From Candidatus Nanohalococcus occultus (GTDB taxonomy: Archaea > Nanohalarchaeota > Nanosalinia > Nanosalinales > Nanosalinaceae), in contig NZ_CP104395.1 in assembly GCF_029207735.1 (NCBI RefSeq), positions 62,001-126,000 of the forward strand: DNA of 64,000 bases. Reading direction: 5' to 3'. Position numbers and translations under genes: made by a program. Under the pieces are notes generated by a model. The model was not told the DNA's origin. It saw only the letters and a program-made list of their open reading frames with translations, and made no database searches. This document shows positions 19,959 through 30,662 of this stretch, in pieces (the first letter of the stretch is position 1; each line of letters begins with the position of its first letter).

Positions 19959-22900
19959 TTACTGAGTTGCCAAGTTGACGGTGTCCTTGCCTGAGAGCTT
20001 CTCGCTGATAGAGTTCCAGTTAGCCATGGCTGCTGCGGCTGAACGTGTATCGCTCGAGCTGTAACCTGCTACAACTAGGGCGTCCTGTCCCTGGCTGAAG
20101 GCGTCGTTGACCATATCAACTACCTGATCGCCTTCGCTGTACTCGTTGCCGGTCCAGGTCTGGTTGTTCTCAGCGAGATCCGCTACAAGCTGGTTGACCG
20201 CTGGTCCTCCAACAAGGATCATGTTGCCAACTGCCTCCGGACTCGATACTTCGCTGTCAAGAGCCACGAAGCTCTCAGCTGGGAAACCGGTCCCGCTGTA
20301 GCTAGGGTTCATGCTGACCGAGCTACTGTCTCCGCCCGCTGAAAGGCTTCCGCCGGCAGCTGTGAATGCTGCGCCGACAACTGCTTGGGCGTCAGGATAG
20401 CTAATCGTCAAACTACCTTCCTCGTTCGAGTCATAGCTGGTGAAGGCTCCGAACACGTCAAAGCCTTCAGTTACATCGTCGTTGCTCTCAAGAGAATCAG
20501 TTTCCCTCATCGAAGGATCAGAGAACGTCGGAGCTGAAAGCTCAAGTCTTTCCTCACTTGAACTGTAATCAGCTGTCACAACGTAACCATGCTGGTTCTC
20601 GCTGTCAGTTTCCTCCTCGATAAACACTGCTCCTGGCTCGCTGCTAGGTAGAGCGCTGAACAAACCGCTTGTAACGCCATTGGTTTCCTCAGAATCCGTC
20701 GAGAAATACTCTACGCTCCCGGAAGAACCTCCGAAAACCGTATCGCCCGTTGTGTAATCGTCTGAACCGTCAGCGTCGTCAACAACAGTCTCACCGGAAT
20801 CAAACTGGCTGTTACCTCCATCCATGTGTTTGATGTTCGATGAGAAGGCGTTCAGGTTTGAACCTGCCACTGTGGCACTTGAGGAGCCGGTATCAAGTAC
20901 GGAGTAGGCGATGATGTCTTCTCCGTCCGTGTACTGAGAGTTCCCGGACTGCTCGACATACAGGTTCGATGTTGCGCTCAGATCGGAGAGATCCGCAGAT
21001 CCAGAAGTCACTACGGTATCTCCACTGTCTAGGTTCGAGTCAGCTGAGCTTACAATTGCTTCACCGTTCTCGAATACGTCGCTGTCTCCGCTGTCGTCGG
21101 TGAACTTCTCGCTGCTCGCAAAGCTAGCTAAAGAGGCTCCAACATCCATGTCGCCAGCAGAAACTGTTGATCCAGCTGAATAGGTTGTCTGGAATCCTCT
21201 GATACGGAAATCAGGGTTGTCTGCGCTTGCGGTCTCATCTGTAACTGTGCCACTCCCGCTCATGTCAATGTAGACGGAGTCTGAAGCATCCTGTCCTGAA
21301 GACGTTCCTGGTACATCAAAGTACTTGACAGGGTTACTGACTCCTGTCGCAGATCCTACAGTGATTGTGGATGCGTCGCCGATCGTCCCTGTTCCTCCTG
21401 AGAAGTAGACATCGGTGTCGGCATCACCTCCTCCGTCGTTACTTCCTACATCGAAGATCACGGCTTCGTTCGTTCCATCTTCTCCTTCTGTCCAGCTACC
21501 CGTTAAGGTTTGATCCGTTGTGGAAGATCCTGCTGTCAGTCCGTTGTCTACAAGCACAGGGTCTTCTGCGTTATATGTGCCATCGTTTCCTAGATCGATG
21601 AAAACAGAGTCTCCGGCCTCAAGAGTTCCGGAAGTTCCGCCTGTGTCAACAACGTCTACGCTTGCCGAGCTAACTGAGCTTAAGGACTTGCCTGCGTCCT
21701 CATCGGTGTCTTTAACAGAGGTCAGCTGGTTCAGTCCGTAATCAATTGTGCTTACGTCCGTATCTGAACCTGACTTAACGGTTACTGACGTGATTCTTGT
21801 CTCACTTGCTGCTACGGTATTGTCGTCAGTTCCTCCTGACTCATCGTAGATGACCTCGCCATCCGTATAACTGCCGGTGTCTGAGGCATCATCGTAGTAG
21901 TTAACAGCTGATCCGAAGTTCGTTAAATCAAGGCTTCCGGAGGTTATGACTGTGTCGCCAGACTCAAGTTGGCTGTCAGATCCTCCACCTGACTGGTCAA
22001 TAATCGCTTCGCCCGAGCTGTAAGCGCCGTCATGATCGCTGTCACCCCAGTAAATGTTGCTTCCGAAGCTCTCAACAGCGTTCCCGTCGTAAGTTGTGGA
22101 TGTGGCGCCGTTGGTCTTGAGGGTCGCCCTCAATATATCGTCTTCAGTCTCATAACTTCCGGTCGATGTGCCATCGTCAATGAAGAACTCTCCTGTGTTT
22201 CCCTCAGAGTCTCCGAGCGAGTTAAACCCGATAAGGTTTGTTCCTAGTCCAAGTCCGGATGGGTCCTGTGATGGCTCGTAGAACGTTAATCTTCCGCCGT
22301 TTTCAGTTTCAAGCGTTGGGAAAGCGGTTGTGGTTCCTGAAGAGCTTCCTCCGGTTTGAACTCCGCTGCCGTCTGTTCCTGCGTCCGTTCCCCAGGCAAC
22401 TTCGAAGTAAGGATCAGAACCTGTTCCTTCAAGGAAAAAGTGGTATGTCTGGCCGTCAATGATCTCCGTGTCTCTGTAGACGTCGTTGGAGGTATCGGCA
22501 TCCAAGGTGACTTCGACGTCTGAGCCTGAAGCTCTGTCCGTCAGATCGATTGTGGCCTGATCTCCGCTTGAAAGAGTCTCTGTTGAGTCTCTATCGATTC
22601 CTGTGGTTTCCCAGTAATGGCTGAATCCTCCGGCATCTGTGATGAAGTACTCATCTTCTCTTACCTGGGCGCCTTCGACCCCGTGGATTGTCTCTCCGTC
22701 ATCGTCGGCTAGTTCGATGCTGGATCCATCGTAGTGTAGGAAATCAAGGTTTGAATCCTGGTTTAAGGATGCTGAGACCTGGATGGTCTCATCGTTCCGG
22801 GCTGAGAACTCGATCTCTTCGGTGGAATCAGCTTCTGAACTGTCAGGGTTCAAGCCTCCGAACTGGAACTCTATGCCTGGGAAAGCATCGTGGACGAACG

Positions 22901-24038
22901 TTTCATCGGCAACGACAGCGTCTTCGTCGTCTTCCGGCGCACCAACGTATACATCGATGCTTGAAACTGAGTCAATGCTGTCGGATCCGCTGTCTCCGTT
23001 GAACTCGACGTAGGTACCATCAACATCGTCGTCTTCATCGTTCTGAATAGGCTCTCCATCGGAAAGAGTCATCTCTGCGGAACCAATCGAGAAACTGACG
23101 GTTCCAGCTGACTGGTCGTTGCTTGTCTGGATGATGTTATCAACCCGGACTTCCTGACCGTTTACCGTGAACGATTCATCTTCCTCGTATTCGTCTAACT
23201 CTCCGTTGACGGTTATGGCCGCGGTATCGGAGCCTGTAACTGCTTCAACTCCGATCGTGACTTCTTCGCCATCGATCGAGATGGTTGAAGGCTCTTCGTC
23301 TGTGGAGACAGAAACAGTCTCCGATGATCCGTAAAGAAGCAGCTCGTCTGTGTTGTCCTTGTTGTCTTCGGCGATTGTGTATGTTGTACCGAACAACGTG
23401 ATTTCCTCTCCTGCGACCTCCGAGTCCGTGAAATCAAGAGTGTCCTCGAAGTTCGCCTGAAGATTGTAAAGATGATCGGAAGGTGAGGCACCTACGCTGG
23501 TAGGTGTGGAAACATAGACTTCCGGATCTTCGTTGTCAAGTTCCTCTGCGTCGTTACTGAATGTTACCTCGAGTTTGCCGACGTTCAGGTAGTTTGTTAC
23601 GTCGGTTTCGTCTCCGCCGTCGTCTCTGAATGTTGTCTCCGATAAAACGTTTAACTCATCCTGCGTCAGTGTTTTCCTGACTGCGTTGATCTCATCTCCG
23701 AAGTACAGATCATCGTTCCGGGTGTTAAGTGTAACGCCTTCAGTCGCCGACCAGCCGAAACCGCCTACGGAAACAGACTCGGTCGTGAAAGCTGCGTTCC
23801 CTAAACCGGCAGCGATACTGGTTGCTCCTAGAACATCCGCGCTCTTCGCGGACTCTCCTACCACAACCGTGGTATCTACCATCCCGTCTTCATCGATAAA
23901 CTGTGAAGGATACTCGCCTAGAGATCCACTTGACCCACTGGACTGGGCAGCGCCCATAGAAGCTGCTCCTGCCAAGGTCGCTCCAACCAGTAGTGCGGAA
24001 CCTGCGAGTGTCTTTGTAATCTTCTTGATATTTCGCAT
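19959..24038 (-). CDS. S-layer protein with a long acidic repeat insert (paralogue 1)
   Basis: This is a secreted 1359-residue protein. A signal peptide (MRNIKKITKTLAGSALLVGA, cleavage probably near AQSS) leads into the archaeal S-layer N-terminal domain with VVVGESAKSADVLGAT. The C-terminal domain contains ILVGGPAVNQLVADL and DALVVAGYSSSDTRSAA. This is the Methanococcus/Thermococcus-type S-layer architecture. Residues about 620-1105 are an insert of acidic Gly/Ser/Asp repeats that is absent from the second paralogue. It is extremely acidic, as expected for a halophile surface protein. Confidence 0.88.
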   Translation of the reverse strand: MRNIKKITKTLAGSALLVGATLAGAASMGAAQSSGSSGSLGEYPSQFIDEDGMVDTTVVVGESAKSADVLGATSIAAGLGNAAFTTESVSVGGFGWSATEGVTLNTRNDDLYFGDEINAVRKTLTQDELNVLSETTFRDDGGDETDVTNYLNVGKLEVTFSNDAEELDNEDPEVYVSTPTSVGASPSDHLYNLQANFEDTLDFTDSEVAGEEITLFGTTYTIAEDNKDNTDELLLYGSSETVSVSTDEEPSTISIDGEEVTIGVEAVTGSDTAAITVNGELDEYEEDESFTVNGQEVRVDNIIQTSNDQSAGTVSFSIGSAEMTLSDGEPIQNDEDDDVDGTYVEFNGDSGSDSIDSVSSIDVYVGAPEDDEDAVVADETFVHDAFPGIEFQFGGLNPDSSEADSTEEIEFSARNDETIQVSASLNQDSNLDFLHYDGSSIELADDDGETIHGVEGAQVREDEYFITDAGGFSHYWETTGIDRDSTETLSSGDQATIDLTDRASGSDVEVTLDADTSNDVYRDTEIIDGQTYHFFLEGTGSDPYFEVAWGTDAGTDGSGVQTGGSSSGTTTAFPTLETENGGRLTFYEPSQDPSGLGLGTNLIGFNSLGDSEGNTGEFFIDDGTSTGSYETEDDILRATLKTNGATSTTYDGNAVESFGSNIYWGDSDHDGAYSSGEAIIDQSGGGSDSQLESGDTVITSGSLDLTNFGSAVNYYDDASDTGSYTDGEVIYDESGGTDDNTVAASETRITSVTVKSGSDTDVSTIDYGLNQLTSVKDTDEDAGKSLSSVSSASVDVVDTGGTSGTLEAGDSVFIDLGNDGTYNAEDPVLVDNGLTAGSSTTDQTLTGSWTEGEDGTNEAVIFDVGSNDGGGDADTDVYFSGGTGTIGDASTITVGSATGVSNPVKYFDVPGTSSGQDASDSVYIDMSGSGTVTDETASADNPDFRIRGFQTTYSAGSTVSAGDMDVGASLASFASSEKFTDDSGDSDVFENGEAIVSSADSNLDSGDTVVTSGSADLSDLSATSNLYVEQSGNSQYTDGEDIIAYSVLDTGSSSATVAGSNLNAFSSNIKHMDGGNSQFDSGETVVDDADGSDDYTTGDTVFGGSSGSVEYFSTDSEETNGVTSGLFSALPSSEPGAVFIEEETDSENQHGYVVTADYSSSEERLELSAPTFSDPSMRETDSLESNDDVTEGFDVFGAFTSYDSNEEGSLTISYPDAQAVVGAAFTAAGGSLSAGGDSSSVSMNPSYSGTGFPAESFVALDSEVSSPEAVGNMILVGGPAVNQLVADLAENNQTWTGNEYSEGDQVVDMVNDAFSQGQDALVVAGYSSSDTRSAAAAMANWNSISEKLSGKDTVNLATQ
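20720..22190 (-). repeat. Degenerate DxDGxYxxGE-type repeats within S-layer protein 1
   Basis: About eight degenerate units have an acidic loop followed by Y/F-x-x-G-E: DSDHDGAYSSGE, DASDTGSYTDGE, DSGDSDVFENGE, EQSGNSQYTDGE, DGGNSQFDSGE, DLGNDGTYNAED and similar. The best copy fits an EF-hand-type calcium loop at positions 1, 3, 5 and 12. Many units are followed by SGDTVxTSGSxDL. Boundaries are approximate. Confidence 0.7.
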
Positions 24039-24161
24039 AATTTAGTACCTATTACATTTACAATGAGTTCCACCGGGATTTAAGCTTGAGCAAAAACTCA
24101 AAGAGAAAAAAGTCAGAGACTTTCTGGCATTCAATCCCCGGTCATGTTTTCGAGGCGTTTT

Positions 24162-24467
24162 TCAACCTCTTCGAGATCTTCCTGACTGTAAATAGTCTCT
24201 GTGCCTGACTGCGAAAACCACAGTCTCTGAATCATTGTAATCAAAGTAAACTCGGTGATCCAAACCGTTTTCCTTCAGCTTTAACCTGTGAAACTCGATT
24301 CCAAACTGAGGCTTGCTGATGTAACTGATGTGGTCTCGATCTAACTCTCCGGTTAAACGTTCTTTTATCTCCAGAGCTAGCTCTCTCCGGTTGTAATCCT
24401 CTTGAGCATCTATGTCCTTCTCAGCTTCTTCTGTAATCTTCACTCGCTGATCATTCGTATTTCTCAA
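24162..24467 (-). CDS. RelE/ParE-family toxin, probably frameshifted at its C-terminus
   Basis: The 101-residue protein has the RelE/ParE core, with conserved segments FHRLKLKENGLDHRVYFDY and TVVFAVRHRDY. It would be an mRNA interferase or gyrase-type toxin and overlaps the antitoxin gene by 17 bases. A GTG at 24443 (KITEEAEKDID start) is a plausible alternative start. The C-terminus after RHRDY reads as basic non-family sequence, whereas a one-base shift restores YSQEDLEEVEKRLENMTGD ending at 24131, so the gene looks frameshifted. Confidence 0.75.
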   Translation of the reverse strand: MRNTNDQRVKITEEAEKDIDAQEDYNRRELALEIKERLTGELDRDHISYISKPQFGIEFHRLKLKENGLDHRVYFDYNDSETVVFAVRHRDYLQSGRSRRG

Positions 24468-24678
24468 TGATGTCGTCTATACTTGTTGTTTCCACATCGC
24501 CCTGTTTCAGCTTCAAAGCTCGCAAAAGCAGTTCCTGATCAAGCTCGCTGTCCTCTTCCAGCTTCTCCCTGAGTGCCTGACGGATGTACTCGGAAGGACT
24601 CTTGAAGTTCTTTCTTTCCGCAGTTTCCTTAATCTCGTCTTTCAAACCGTCGGGGACGTCCACACTTATTCTTGCCAT
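24451..24678 (-). CDS. Ribbon-helix-helix antitoxin
   Basis: The 75-residue protein has an N-terminal ribbon-helix-helix (RISVDVPDGLKDEI...FKSPSEYIRQALREKL) followed by an acidic toxin-binding tail. It precedes the RelE-like toxin and has a GAGGTG SD upstream. It would repress its own promoter, and three 11-bp-spaced repeats lie just upstream. Confidence 0.85.
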   Translation of the reverse strand: MARISVDVPDGLKDEIKETAERKNFKSPSEYIRQALREKLEEDSELDQELLLRALKLKQGDVETTSIDDIIEKYE

Positions 24679-24692
24679 TCTATAACACCTCG

Positions 24693-24721
24693 ATGTGATA
24701 AATATGTGATGAAGATGTTAA
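24693..24721. promoter_or_regulatory. Phased operator repeats of the minus-strand TA module
   Basis: ATGTGAT occurs at 24693-24699 and 24704-24710, followed by ATGTTAA at 24715-24721, with an exact 11-bp period. It lies 15-43 bp upstream of the antitoxin start and overlaps the expected TATA region, as expected for autorepression by a ribbon-helix-helix protein. Confidence 0.6.
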
Positions 24722-24832
24722 AAATATTTCTTTACTTCTCAAGCTGTTTTGGATTAACCTTTCTGCCATGTCCTGCCCGAGCGCTATAAACAATATACGG
24801 TCTTGAAAAGTTACCTTGAATTACCATAAGAG

Positions 24833-24847
24833 TATTAAATTTTAATA
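24833..24847. promoter_or_regulatory. Palindromic operator/TATA of the plus-strand TA module
   Basis: TATTAAA-T-TTTAATA is a perfect palindrome centred 23 nt before the ATG at 24863. It can act both as the TATA element and as a ribbon-helix-helix operator. Confidence 0.55.
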
Positions 24848-24862
24848 TCGGAAAGCTATTTT

Positions 24863-25108
24863 ATGCCATCTACCAGTATCAATCTGCCTGAAGGACTCAA
24901 AAAACAGTTAGAGGAACGGCTTGAAAGAGGCGACTACCAGAACACCTCCGAGTTCATCAGGGAGGCTATAAGAGAGAAGCTGAAAAGAGAGACCCAGCTC
25001 CACCCTAAGGAGATACAGCGGATAATGAACGTCCGTGAAAGAGAACGAAAAGGAGAGCAAAAATGGATTCCATTTGAACAAGTCAAGGAAGAGCTAGGGA
25101 TAGAATAA
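24863..25108 (+). CDS. Ribbon-helix-helix antitoxin (second module)
   Basis: The 81-residue protein starts STSINLPEGLKKQLEERLER and continues NTSEFIREAIREKLK, a ribbon-helix-helix fold, then a charged tail. It is one base from the toxin gene that follows. The N-terminal half resembles the antitoxin of the neighbouring divergent module, so the two are related, but their tails differ and cross-neutralisation cannot be assumed. Confidence 0.85.
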   Translation: MPSTSINLPEGLKKQLEERLERGDYQNTSEFIREAIREKLKRETQLHPKEIQRIMNVRERERKGEQKWIPFEQVKEELGIE

Positions 25109-25109
25109 G

Positions 25110-25421
25110 ATGGAGATCGTAGTCGAACCTGGAGCGAAGCAAGACCTGAAGGAAATAGAGGGTCCTGTTAGACAGACTATAGGGAAGGCTATAGAAAATC
25201 TGGCTGAAGATCCGCTGCCAGAGAACAGCTACGTAATCTATCTGCCCGACAACACGGAAATACAGGTCCTGAAACTACAGGAAGAGGACAGAAACAGCAA
25301 GTTAAACCATAGAGTAACTTACGATATTGTAGAAAACGACCATGTCCGTGTTTACGGAGTCTTCTCAAGACAGTCCGGCTACCAGAACATCAAACAAAAT
25401 ACAGCCAAACGCGTAGAATAA
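25110..25421 (+). CDS. RelE-family toxin (second module)
   Basis: The 103-residue protein opens MEIVVEPGAKQDLKEIEG and has the family pattern LNHRVTYDIVENDHVRVYGV near the C-terminus. It is likely an RNase-type toxin. It follows the antitoxin with a one-base gap. Unlike the neighbouring module, the reading frame looks intact. Confidence 0.8.
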   Translation: MEIVVEPGAKQDLKEIEGPVRQTIGKAIENLAEDPLPENSYVIYLPDNTEIQVLKLQEEDRNSKLNHRVTYDIVENDHVRVYGVFSRQSGYQNIKQNTAKRVE

Positions 25422-25544
25422 TCACAGCTGCCTGTAAAACGAACCAGGCAAACATTTTTTGTAAAAACTTTTTCTCTTACCCCCGGCTTTAACTCAGGGC
25501 CGAATAACTTGAAATCGGGAAATAAAGAAAGAAAAAGGAAATGT

Positions 25545-25564
25545 TGAAGGTCTCTCGACCTTCA
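25545..25564 (-). terminator. Stem-loop terminator of the second S-layer gene
   Basis: TGAAGGTC-TCTC-GACCTTCA is a perfect 8-bp stem with a 4-nt loop. On the minus strand it follows the S-layer stop by 6 nt and is followed by a T-rich run. It closely resembles the terminator of the first S-layer gene. Confidence 0.8.
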
Positions 25565-25570
25565 GTGGAC

Positions 25571-28336
25571 TTACTGAGTTGCTAGGTTGACAGAAGTCTG
25601 TCCTGAGACTTCGTCACTCCAGTCTCCCCAGTTGGTGACTGAACGTGCTGCTGCACGTGTGTCGCTTGCAGAGTAACCTGCTACGACAAGTGCGTCCTGA
25701 CCTTCTGTGAAAGCGTTGTTGACCAGTTCGATTCTCTGATCTCCTTCGCTGTAGTCAGATCCAGCTGCTGTCTTGTTTGCTGAAGCAAGTTCAGAAACAA
25801 GGTTGTTGACTGCTGGTCCTCCGACAAGGATCAGGTCATTCTGCTTGAGCTGGCTTGGATTCTCACTGTCCAGTGCGACAAAGTCGCTAGCTGGGAATCC
25901 TGCTCCGTTGTAAGTAGGAGTCATGCTTGTTGCAGATCCTGCGCTTCCGCCTGCTGAAAGGCTTCCGTCAGCACCTGTAACTGCTGCTCCTGCGACTGCC
26001 TGACCTTCAGGCTGATGTAGTGTGAAGCTTCCCTGTTCGTCGGAATCGAACTCGGAGTAAGCTCCGTAGACATCGTAAGCGGCAGATACATCGTCATCAG
26101 ACTCAAGATCTACGTAGCCGTCGCCCTGTCCGCCTGTGTAATCAGGCTGGTCGATTGTGACTTCTTCTTCTCCGTCATCCTCTCCTGGAGTGAAGACGTA
26201 TGCGTTCTCGTCATCGTCTTCGTTCTCAGGCTGGAAGACTGCTACAGAAGGTTCTGCTAGTCCGTACTCGTTGTTGCTTGTGTCGACTGACGCGCCGGAG
26301 TCTACACCGAAGTGTAGGTCGTCGTCTGCATCAAGAGTTGCTCTGTAGGTGATTCCCTGATCGGAAACTTCGACTATGTCGGTTGCGTTTCCGTTTCCTA
26401 CATCTAGGTTCAGATCTCCGTCTGTTGAGCTGTCTCCTCCGTCTTGGATGTCAACAGTTACAGTCTTCATGTCTGTGCTCTCCGTTGATGGGATTTCCAG
26501 TGTGAAGTCTGCTGTGTCTGAGCTACTTGAAACTCCTGTTGCAAGCTCTGTGCTCTGCATGAAGGAAACTGCTGAATCAGACTCTGTGTCTAGAGGTGTG
26601 AAGACTGATGTTTCAGTTCCTACGTTGTTGAATTCTGCGTCTCCCCAAGTTACACTTAGAGTTGGTTCTTCGTCAGATTCGTCTCCGGTGTCGACTTCGA
26701 AGTGGTAGGTCTGTCCATCGATGATTTCTTCTCCCTGTCGGACATCGTCGTCGCTGTCAGATTCTGTTCTGTTGCTGTCGTCTAGCTCGACTTCTACTGT
26801 CTCGCCTGTGACTACGTCTCTTATGTCTGCTGTTGTGTCAGCTCCGTCGACGTCGATTCCTGTGACTTCCCACATGTGGCTGAAGTCTCCTGCGTCTGTG
26901 AATAGGTACTGATCTTCTTCAGCTTCTAGACCTTCAGCTGTGACGAAGTCGTCTCCGTCTCCGTCAGCTAGTGCTACAGAGTCGTCGTCATCTCCGTCGT
27001 AACTATCGACGTATCCGAATGTCTGAGAGACTGAGTCTCCGTTTGCGCCTGTGAAGCTGATCTGTGCTTCGTCGTCGCCTGATGTGGATACTTCGATCTC
27101 TTCGACGTTCTCCCCTGCTTCCATTGTGTCAGGGTTGAGTCCGCCGAACTGTACTTCAACGTTCTCGAACATTGGGTGGCTGAATGTTTCGTCAGCTGTT
27201 AGAGCGTCTTCATCGTCGTCCTGTGCTCCAACGTAAACGTCAATGCTTGAGATTGAGTTGATGTCTGAGAATCCTGTTCCGCCGTTAAGTTCGACGTATG
27301 TTCCGTCGATCTCGTCACCGTCAGCGTCTTCTACAGCCTGACCGTTGATCAGTGTCATCTCAGCTGATCCGATTGAGAATGTTACTGTTCCTGCTGACTG
27401 GTCGTTGGATGTCTGGATGATGTTGTCGACTCTGACTTCCTGATCGTTTACTGTGAACGATTCATCTTCGTCGTACTCATCTAGCTCTCCGTTGACTTCG
27501 ATTGCTGCTGTGTCTGATCCTGTTACAGCTGTTACGGAAAGTGTGACTTCTTCGCCGTCAATTGTGACTGTCTGAGGTTCTTCGTCTGTGGATACAGAAA
27601 CTGTTTCTGATGCTCCGTACAGAAGAAGTTCGTCGTCGTTGCCTGTGTTGTCTTCGGCAATTGTGTAAGTTGTGCCGAATAGCTCGATCTCTTCTCCTGC
27701 GACTTCGTCGTCTGTGAAGTCAATGGAGTCTTCGAAGTTAGCCTGTAGATTGTACAGGTAACTCTCGTCGTTTACTGAGCTCTCTGAAGGTACGGAAACG
27801 TGTAGAACTGGATCTTCGTTGTCTAGTTCATCTGCGTCGTTTCCGAACGTGATGTTCTGTGATCCTACGTTCAGGTAGTTTGTGATGTCGGTTTCGTCTC
27901 CGCCATCGTCACGGAAAGTTGTTTCTGCTAGGATGTCTAGTTCATCCTGTGTTAGTGTTTCTCTAACTGTGTCTAGTGCGTCTCCGAAGTAAAGCTGGTC
28001 GTTTCGTGTGTCTAGTGTGACGCCGTTTGATGCTGACCAACCGAAGCTTCCGCCTTCTGCGGATACGGATTCTGTTGTGAATGCTGCGTTTCCTAGTCCT
28101 GCAGCGATGTTTGTTGCTCCTAGAACGTCTGCTGTCTTTGCTGACTCTCCTACTACTACTGTAGTGCCGTCAACTGTACCATCTTCGTCTACGAATGGTG
28201 CTGGATAGTCGCCAAGGGTATTTCCACTGGACCCACTTGACTGAGCTGCGCCCATTGCAGATGCTCCTGCTAGGGTGGCTCCGACAAGTAGTGCGGATCC
28301 TGCGACTGTCTTTGTAATCTTCTTGATTGATTTCAT
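25571..28336 (-). CDS. S-layer protein (paralogue 2)
   Basis: This 921-residue secreted protein has signal peptide MKSIKKITKTVAGSALLVGA, the S-layer N-terminal domain (VVVGESAKTADVLGAT) and C-terminal domain (LILVGGPAVNNLVSEL, DALVVAGYSASDTRAAA). It aligns along its length with paralogue 1 except for the latter's repeat insert. The ATG at 28336 starts the signal peptide; the longer frame upstream is part of a structured 5' leader. It is probably the main surface-lattice protein, judged by its elaborate promoter region. Confidence 0.9.
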   Translation of the reverse strand: MKSIKKITKTVAGSALLVGATLAGASAMGAAQSSGSSGNTLGDYPAPFVDEDGTVDGTTVVVGESAKTADVLGATNIAAGLGNAAFTTESVSAEGGSFGWSASNGVTLDTRNDQLYFGDALDTVRETLTQDELDILAETTFRDDGGDETDITNYLNVGSQNITFGNDADELDNEDPVLHVSVPSESSVNDESYLYNLQANFEDSIDFTDDEVAGEEIELFGTTYTIAEDNTGNDDELLLYGASETVSVSTDEEPQTVTIDGEEVTLSVTAVTGSDTAAIEVNGELDEYDEDESFTVNDQEVRVDNIIQTSNDQSAGTVTFSIGSAEMTLINGQAVEDADGDEIDGTYVELNGGTGFSDINSISSIDVYVGAQDDDEDALTADETFSHPMFENVEVQFGGLNPDTMEAGENVEEIEVSTSGDDEAQISFTGANGDSVSQTFGYVDSYDGDDDDSVALADGDGDDFVTAEGLEAEEDQYLFTDAGDFSHMWEVTGIDVDGADTTADIRDVVTGETVEVELDDSNRTESDSDDDVRQGEEIIDGQTYHFEVDTGDESDEEPTLSVTWGDAEFNNVGTETSVFTPLDTESDSAVSFMQSTELATGVSSSSDTADFTLEIPSTESTDMKTVTVDIQDGGDSSTDGDLNLDVGNGNATDIVEVSDQGITYRATLDADDDLHFGVDSGASVDTSNNEYGLAEPSVAVFQPENEDDDENAYVFTPGEDDGEEEVTIDQPDYTGGQGDGYVDLESDDDVSAAYDVYGAYSEFDSDEQGSFTLHQPEGQAVAGAAVTGADGSLSAGGSAGSATSMTPTYNGAGFPASDFVALDSENPSQLKQNDLILVGGPAVNNLVSELASANKTAAGSDYSEGDQRIELVNNAFTEGQDALVVAGYSASDTRAAARSVTNWGDWSDEVSGQTSVNLATQ

Positions 28337-29283: not shown

Positions 29284-29471
29284 AACCAACTCTGTGTCTT
29301 GAAACTGTATAAAGTTCGAACCGTTTCTTTTGCTCAAATCGGAGATCGAGTCAAATTTCGGATCTGGTCTTTGATCTCTATATAAACAAAACCTGTCTTA
29401 TTTGATAAAAAACGTAGTTTTGTCAAATATAAACCACTTGATTTAAAATTACAGCGGTGTTTAATCAAATT

Positions 29472-30662
29472 ATGGACTCGAGAAAATTCAACAATAGTAG
29501 AGCTGGAGATATCTTTGAATATGAAAAGGACGGTGAGAGGGTCTCTACGTTTGTCCCGGAGCCTCTTCCACCAGAGATAAGGTATGATCAGGAGACTGTA
29601 AAGCTCATTGAGGATGCGGCAAGCAACCTAAATGATCTGAAGGGTACGGGCAGAAATCTTCCGGATCCGAATATTTTCATAAGGCCCTATATTTTGAAGG
29701 AGGCTGTACTCAGCTCCCAGATAGAGGGTACTCAAACTTCCTTCGAGGAAGCGGTAGTACGCAGCGAGTCCGGTGACCTGGAACCTAGCAGAGAAGCTAG
29801 AGATCTTGAGGAAGTCCGGAACTACGTTGAGGCTCTGAATTATGGTTTAGAGCGGTTAAACGTTGAACCTCTGACGGTTGACTTGATAAAGAGGATACAT
29901 GAGAAGCTGATGTCTGGGGTGAGAGGAAAAGATAGATCGCCTGGGCAGTTTCGGGAAAAACAGGTACATATAGGTGAGGTAGGGGTCTCCAGAGAGGACG
30001 CGGAATACGTTCCGATGGCTCCTGAGAAGATCTCTTCCGCTATGGAAGATCTTGTTGATTTCATGAATGAGGATAGAGGGATGCCTTATCTTGTCAAATC
30101 TGCGTTGATACATTATCAGTTCGAGGCCATCCATCCGTTTGAAGATGGGAACGGCAGAATGGGCAGGCTTCTGATAATAATTGATATGATACGGTCTGGG
30201 AAGCTTTCTCAGCCTCTACTTTATCTGAGTGAGTACTTCAACAACAATAGAGGTCGGTACTACGATAAGCTTCTTAGAGTCAGCAGGGATGGTGAATACG
30301 AGGAGTGGATAGATTTCTTCCTACGCGCTGTAAAGACTCAGTCTTCCAATTCTACTAGCACCGCGGTAAAGATCCTAGAAAAGAGAGAAAAGTACAAACA
30401 AAGTCTGCGCCAGGGGGAGGTACCTGAAAACTGTGTTGTGCTTATGGAGAACGTATTTGATCTCAGGCCGCGTACTATCACCCAGGTTGCTGAAGAACTA
30501 GGTGTAAAGTACCATGCTGCTCGAAACTACGTCAATGTGCTTGTTGAACACGGAGTGCTTGAACAGAGAGACAAGAAGGGAAGGGAAAAACAGTATGTCG
30601 CAGGCGAGCTTCTCAGAATGATGGAGGAAGAATCGTCCCGGGTGGAAACGAACGTTATCTGA
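29472..30662 (+). CDS. Fic-domain AMP transferase with a winged-helix C-terminus
   Basis: This 396-residue protein has an N-terminal Fic_N region (PEPLPPEIRYD...), the inhibitory motif SSQIEGTQ ([S/T]xxxE[G/N]) near residue 80, the active site HPFEDGNGRMGRL near residue 220, and a C-terminal winged helix (TITQVAEELGVKYHAARNYV). Such proteins transfer AMP to hydroxyl side chains and are held inactive by the inhibitory helix (class II). A GTG at 29457 is in frame, but TTTAAAA at about 29442 places transcription close to the ATG at 29472. Confidence 0.92.
   Translation: MDSRKFNNSRAGDIFEYEKDGERVSTFVPEPLPPEIRYDQETVKLIEDAASNLNDLKGTGRNLPDPNIFIRPYILKEAVLSSQIEGTQTSFEEAVVRSESGDLEPSREARDLEEVRNYVEALNYGLERLNVEPLTVDLIKRIHEKLMSGVRGKDRSPGQFREKQVHIGEVGVSREDAEYVPMAPEKISSAMEDLVDFMNEDRGMPYLVKSALIHYQFEAIHPFEDGNGRMGRLLIIIDMIRSGKLSQPLLYLSEYFNNNRGRYYDKLLRVSRDGEYEEWIDFFLRAVKTQSSNSTSTAVKILEKREKYKQSLRQGEVPENCVVLMENVFDLRPRTITQVAEELGVKYHAARNYVNVLVEHGVLEQRDKKGREKQYVAGELLRMMEEESSRVETNVI

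Follow-up and report, generated by a model that had tools for sequence, protein, structure and literature searches.

A central array of twin EF-type loops in the longer of two tandem S-layer paralogues of a nanohaloarchaeal symbiont, a candidate movable surface module

The window analyzed here, a 64,000-nt stretch of the genome of Candidatus Nanohalococcus occultus, encodes two tandem S-layer paralogues, the longer of which carries a central array of twin EF-type loops that its neighbor lacks (Table 1). We lean towards reading the long paralogue as an S-layer subunit on which an exchangeable, probably cation-stabilized array is displayed, and the array as a movable cassette also used on other surface proteins. 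The long protein would be a subunit of the Methanococcus voltae type, both termini of which would fold into a cell-side anchor. Between the termini, a cassette of about 535 residues of twin EF-type loops takes the place of about 90 residues of the short neighbor. The cassette would be a movable extracellular module, placed on distant S-layer backbones and on non-S-layer surface proteins of related nanohaloarchaea. The lattice-forming backbone would be common to the short and long subunits, with a divalent-cation-stabilized β-array held outward by the long one to serve as a spacer or to make contact with the haloarchaeal host or other cells. Within this scheme we infer the metal binding by the array, the co-assembly of both subunits in one lattice and the direction in which the module moved; adhesion or host contact through the array would be our guess from the biology.

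Table 1 Features of the S-layer gene pair and of the array, in positions of the window.
Feature	Residues	Position	Strand	Basis
Long S-layer paralogue (P0001)	1359 aa	19959..24038	minus	ORF; PF05124 S_layer_C; TIGR01564
Anchor domain, C-terminal piece	1257-1338	20025..20270	minus	TIGR01564 stretch; P0002 819-899 aligns with 9fsa
Insert	~597-1132	20643..22250	minus	BLASTP junctions 596/1133 vs 602/694
Repeat unit 7	1073-1101	20736..20822	minus	unit HMM 16.7 bits
Repeat unit 6	1027-1052	20883..20960	minus	unit HMM 11.7 bits
Repeat unit 5	979-1013	21000..21104	minus	unit HMM 18.5 bits
Methanogen-like unit	905-934	21237..21326	minus	methanogen-only HMM 16.5 bits (500 shuffles: up to 3.9)
Repeat unit 4	798-831	21546..21647	minus	unit HMM 10.8 bits
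Repeat unit 3	713-738	21825..21902	minus	unit HMM 7.6 bits
Repeat unit 2 (includes DSDHDGAYSSGE)	666-701	21936..22043	minus	unit HMM 24.9 bits; strict loop match
Loop DSDHDGAYSSGE	666-677	22008-22043	minus	strict EF-type pattern
Repeat unit 1 (weak)	616-637	22128..22193	minus	unit HMM 4.7 bits
Anchor domain, N-terminal piece	~50-95	23754..23891	minus	PF05124 span; P0002 51-96 aligns with 9fsa
Short S-layer paralogue (P0002)	921 aa	25571..28336	minus	ORF; PF05124; AlphaFold2 model

Both proteins score above the cut-offs of two S-layer family models. PF05124 (S_layer_C) gives 83.1 bits for the long paralogue, with a match covering residues 42–1340, and 62.5 bits for the short one (Pfam cut-off 23.9), and TIGR01564 gives 43.8 and 37.1 bits, respectively (NCBIfam cut-off 25). 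The scores bear out the initial annotation, which had called the two proteins S-layer paralogues; by sequence, both are assigned to the Methanococcus-type S-layer proteins. The genes are arranged in tandem on the minus strand, the short one upstream and the long one downstream. With the long protein as query and E values up to 0.001, no third S-layer gene was found beyond the pair in the source genome (one contig of 948,351 bases). The strain SVXNc is a cultivated nanohaloarchaeal symbiont of Haloferax, and its published description gives SVXNc_0478 and 0977 as S-layer glycoproteins and SVXNc_0069 as malic enzyme (PMC10266531). Malic enzyme is the first gene of the window. As tag order puts the S-layer pair (19959–28336) near tag 0090, the pair seems to be missing from the published S-layer list.

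Two ParE-like toxin ORFs are located between the S-layer genes, at 24162–24467 (minus) and 25110–25421 (plus); one scores 24.7 bits against PF05016, above the cut-off of 23, and the other 21.6 bits, below it. A Fic-domain protein is encoded near the pair at 29457–30662 (plus).

BLASTP of one paralogue against the other defines the borders of the insert. Residues 1–596 of the long protein align with 1–602 of the short protein at 60%, and residues 1133–1359 align with 694–921 at 50%, so that the segment of the short paralogue opposite the insert is ~603–693. The initial annotation had placed EF-hand-like repeats at 20720–22190; they do lie there, on the minus strand within the 1359-aa ORF, and the long-only part (20643–22250) is slightly larger. 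The insert is Asp-rich, with a D:E ratio of 71:26 vs 70:59 in the N-terminal backbone. Its GC content of 0.512 equals that of the backbone (0.515), with no foreign GC and no sign of recent import. A virus or plasmid origin was also rejected, as no relative was found in phages, plasmids or viral contigs (125 pattern matches in viral contigs, 0 confirmed). Tandem Repeats Finder, run over both S-layer genes, returned a single row at 24693–24727, which is intergenic between them. No DNA tandem repeats able to alter the copy number are present within the array, and the copies are therefore taken to be old and diverged; among the 20 of 33 DNA-level repeat families listed, there are only short, diverged matches.

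The unit of the array is a 37-residue twin, a pair of 12-residue EF-type loops separated by four residues and joined by β-type residues, with loop starts 16 residues apart (consensus kfvDddssggYedGeaiVrDsdgdgvydsgddvvvsG). The unit “DxDGxYxxGE” proposed earlier is present as a motif, but it makes up only half of this twin-loop unit. An HMM built from units of relatives, with no window sequence in it, finds seven units in the insert (E<0.01), none in the rest of P0001 and none in P0002, in agreement with the earlier proposal that the repeats are limited to the longer paralogue. The same HMM finds a mean of 0.13 and a maximum of 2 units in 500 shuffles of the insert. As the relatives were found with the window protein as query, this search tests homology and not independence of discovery. 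A loose 12-residue loop pattern, composed after the copies had been seen, matches eight times in the insert, while 2000 shuffles gave a mean of 0.88 and none reached eight. The pattern matches once in the rest of the long paralogue (shuffle mean 0.75) and three times in the short paralogue (shuffle mean 0.97, P 0.07). Chance or composition behind the motif was rejected on the basis of the shuffles with both the loose pattern and the unit HMM. Acidic low-complexity filler, that is, a motif arising as a by-product of the D, S, T and G-rich proteins of halophiles, would fit an insert that is 42% S+T+G. We nevertheless consider filler highly improbable, because shuffles of the same composition stay far from the seven units, because the short paralogue and the backbone of the long one are more acidic than the insert and give no unit, and because colinear homologues of the array occur in other proteins.

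The loop residues bear on the question of metal binding. Among 50 stretches of relatives matching the unit model, which include many partial ones and a few within backbones, position 1 of the first loop is acidic in 28/30, position 8 aromatic in 42/46, position 11 glycine in 34/48 and position 12 acidic in 41/48. The conserved EF-type loop spacing is present in these units, with positions 1, 8 and 12 kept. In the first loop of the seven window units, as aligned by the HMM, positions 1 and 12 are acidic (5/5 and 7/7), D is found at position 3 in 1/6, and D or N at position 5 in 4/6. The second loop of the window units is weaker, with an acid at position 1 in 5/7, D at position 3 in 2/7, D at position 5 in 1/7 and an acid at position 12 in 5/5. 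The consensus thus resembles a calcium-loop repeat of which the window copy is partly eroded. Of the window loops only DSDHDGAYSSGE fits the strict EF-type pattern. Since no other loop keeps the strict ligand set, calcium binding by the insert is plausible and no firmer. For most window copies the proposal of metal binding is not supported, as D at position 3 is found in two and D or N at position 5 in three of the eight loose-pattern loops. The term “EF-hand” in the sense of a helix-loop-helix is not supported either, as the residues after the loop are β-type. The sole model, a 95-aa two-unit prediction from an 11-row alignment, has short strands and no helices beside the loops, at a pLDDT of 55 that is too low for a fold search and too poor to judge by. 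Calcium loops in strand-loop-strand settings are known, as described by Rigden et al. (PMC3123361).

A different role for such loops would be reinforcement, in which they bind Ca2+ or Mg2+ between subunits and stiffen the lattice in brine with no part in display. Cations stabilize the interfaces of the Haloferax volcanii csg lattice (PMC8640222), and the insert does contain loop-like motifs. However, the ligand positions are partly lost in the window, the same arrays are also seen in proteins that lack an S-layer match, and only 3 of the 79 fetched S-layer loci, some of which cover only part of the gene, hold an ORF with at least two units, so the S-layer family does without the array. We regard reinforcement as unlikely.

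The placement of the array in the long paralogue was considered with an AlphaFold2 model of the short one, calculated from a 40-S-layer alignment (pLDDT 80, pTM 0.67). The termini of this model match the M. voltae structure 9fsa with a Z score of 16.7 over 130 of 135 residues (2.3 Å, 34% identity, residues 39..905). By sequence, the short paralogue matches 9fsa with a phmmer E value of 5e-4, and the N-terminal anchor stretch alone is weak (8.8 bits). Two glucuronidases (three rows, Z 10.9–12.6) come next after 9fsa in the fold search and match the same terminal domain; the comparison below draws on 9fsa only. Residues 24–75 and 484–576 of the M. voltae protein form a dimeric anchor domain (PMC11410804). 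In the predicted model, the N- and C-termini of the short paralogue likewise form one 9fsa-like anchor domain. Along the chain, the insert is flanked by the two anchor pieces and hence belongs to the portion away from the anchor, and the array would project outward. Residues ~600–694 of the short model, which lie opposite the insert, are strand-rich and among its less certain parts.

Whether the module is movable was judged from its carriers elsewhere. Within the phylum, a colinear four-row profile of the whole insert matches 5 of the 28 genomes and the unit profile 8 of the 28; among 394 relatives, the two profiles match 7 and 9, respectively. Among named genomes, the whole protein as query matched none; an alignment of the C-terminus gave 97 relatives, of which the best 80 were kept. 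S-layer carriers are the window's genome, G015, G006 and G002, with broken or gapped frames in G004. Carriers with no PF05124 match are large surface proteins in G011, where the frame runs off its contig and the C-terminus is unseen, and at two loci of G017 (1939-aa and 1196-aa proteins scanned). The insert has colinear relatives in the G015 S-layer protein (PF05124, 88.3 bits) and in the G011 and G017 proteins; the G015 S-layer insert and the G011 protein are colinear at 27% over 749 columns (E 4e-37). A second array type links residues 624–1018 of the G006 S-layer protein to the 1196-aa G017 protein at 31% (E 5e-33). The array differs between species. Searches with the insert and unit profiles found no second array carrier in the window's own genome. 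More distant carriers occur in G332, as a protein of 3637 aa, and in G275, where a protein of 249 aa looks secreted and has such units.

A related unit occurs in 55 of 199 sampled genomes of the class of G275; two of the seven rows of the profile come from a genome of that class (G275) and one from the window, so the number counts relatives along that chain. We call these genomes methanogens because methyl-coenzyme M reductase is present in all 12 tested genomes of the class; methane oxidizers are also possible, and the enzyme was not found in G332. A profile built from methanogen units only finds two units in the window insert (E<0.01), the best of which is listed in Table 1, and 500 shuffles gave a mean of 0.02 units. 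The protein family encoded at the methanogen loci L173–L191 and others is made up of twin EF-type loops, with GD[IV]RLT at their end. For the repeats of L183–L185, L190 and L191, Pfam gives nothing above its cut-offs; Vint in L184 reaches 23.7 bits against a cut-off of 27, and EF-hand in the L190 tail 15.1 bits against 25. L185 terminates in a true dockerin. No convincing solved relative was found for L191 and L146.

The window insert has no domain in Pfam or NCBIfam. Pfam at E≤1 gave only Cupin_3 (E 0.53) over the insert, where the HMMER filters drop most matches above 0.1. No solved structure in the PDB convincingly resembles the insert or its unit profiles by sequence; ribosomal L14, galectin-13 and others are the best matches, none of them better than E 0.13. 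The repeat block is a module family not found in the Pfam, NCBIfam or PDB scans, and no description of repeats in nanohaloarchaeal S-layers was found in the literature searched, mostly without subscription papers.

The history of the backbones was inspected with trees of 18 S-layer proteins, calculated separately for the N-terminal 400 and the C-terminal 185 residues with 200 bootstraps. The four long S-layer proteins do not form one group. The label “long” needs four changes in both trees, and 0% of the 200 bootstraps need one. The long and short copies of the window join with supports of 99/98 in the N-terminal tree and 96/93 in the C-terminal tree. In the N-terminal tree the long copy of G006 joins its own short neighbor (97/93), and the long and short copies of G015 and G002 form one five-row group with G008 whose inner branching is not resolved. 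In the C-terminal tree the G015 pair joins (99/93), the G006 pair is not resolved and the G002 copies do not pair. Each tree thus resolves the pairing of a long copy with its own short neighbor for two of the four genomes. The end branch, as drawn, is longer for the long copy in all four genomes and both trees.

In the 40-S-layer alignment, the stretch opposite residues 590–715 spans 24 to 570 residues, and the two longest are those of P0001 and the G006 long copy. The junctions in the window's genome and G006 agree, at residues 602/694 and 597/704 of the short proteins. The long-only parts of G015 and G002 overlap the same place with an earlier start, at residues 397 and 515 of the long proteins, and “one site” is therefore strictly true for two of the four genomes.

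Two histories fit these data: arrays were inserted repeatedly in one region, or an old pair had its backbones homogenized within genomes. In the latter, one tandem pair would be ancient, the arrayed long S-layer protein ancestral, the backbones kept alike by gene conversion, and the array would never have moved. The ORF coordinates place the short gene upstream of the long one in all four genomes (G006 has a third S-layer copy downstream), as would be expected for an ancient pair. Within-pair protein identity at residues ~200–300 is also high in three of the four pairs (82–86% in G000 and G006, 76–86% in G015), with 52–72% in the fourth, G002. On the other hand, the longest identical DNA run between paralogues is only 18–26 nt in the four pairs, and per block 22–66% of third codon positions are identical. 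No tract of recent conversion is therefore seen, and recent gene conversion was rejected; third positions are too diverged to reveal old conversion. Conversion also leaves unexplained why the same arrays are found in proteins without an S-layer match. We rate an ancient, homogenized pair as possible but doubtful. Repeated insertion is favored over it, not strongly, because arrays also occur outside S-layers. The likeness of residues ~200–300 in the paralogues, despite far-diverged third positions, perhaps reflects a shared lattice interface.

The two paralogous genes lying side by side could also encode alternative coats, with the long and short S-layers expressed at different times and replacing each other. 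One report gives a precedent in Sap and EA1 of Bacillus anthracis, which replace one another (PMC12175726). We hold such replacement to be rather improbable. The display reading set out at the start, in which both subunits would share one lattice, can be extended. As other coat and surface proteins of the relatives contain related blocks, the coat may be a platform for mounting different surface modules. Only tentatively, and with some doubt, we would go further and regard the S-layer locus as a display platform with an exchange site, a tandem pair whose short protein maintains the coat and whose long protein presents twin-loop arrays exchanged with free-standing adhesin-like proteins. If true, the symbiont could change its contact surface, and perhaps its host range, with the coat not rebuilt. 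With its putatively changeable module, the long S-layer protein is a concrete and expressible candidate for how nanohaloarchaea recognize and hold their haloarchaeal hosts, and it is present in a co-culture, that of Ca. Nanohalococcus occultus SVXNc with Haloferax, which has been cultivated. The repeat appears to be an archaeal extracellular family with no Pfam or NCBIfam model, frequent in methanogens too, and with a profile of the repeat, surface proteins now lacking any annotation could be annotated.

We also found an S-layer gene of this DPANN-type family in two haloarchaea, Halobellus captivus (L060/L147) and Natronococcus sp. A-GB1 (L098/L148), whose products are 42% and 29% identical, respectively, to the protein of the window. 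Symbiont–host transfer, a plasmid or contamination are possible sources. L060 has in addition a 648-aa ORF with a P-loop-like GPTGYGKT motif. Contigs labeled Chloroflexi and Syntrophomonadaceae (L090, L103) encode the archaeal S-layer family and are perhaps misbinned.

The long paralogue can be compared with four known systems. It resembles the Methanococcus-type S-layers (9fsa) in its Pfam and NCBIfam scores above the cut-offs and in the anchor fold that the termini of its short neighbor are predicted to form, and differs in its central array, which lies outside the Pfam and NCBIfam matches and occurs in 3 of 79 fetched loci. With the EF-hand and other Dx[DN]xDG calcium loops (Rigden et al., PMC3123361), the best copy and the consensus of the relatives share the 12-residue spacing D1-x-D3-x-D5-G6...E12, whereas the two loops of the window unit are four residues apart, with β-type residues after position 12 and an aromatic residue at position 8. 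The Pfam EF-hand model has no match in the insert. Dockerin type I (PF00404) is similar in being a short extracellular repeat with EF-type loops in pairs. Dockerins, however, are helical and occur as one pair, whereas the window repeat has a β-type spacing and forms long arrays. PF00404 has no match in the window protein or the insert, and the G011 protein reaches 14.4 bits against it, below the cut-off of 22.9. The repeat proteins of methanogens (L146, L183–L191) share the twin-loop unit ending in GD[IV]RLT. They differ in having no PF05124 match in the six scanned and in loops that look closer to canonical, and the window insert is matched by the twin-loop profile built from methanogens only.
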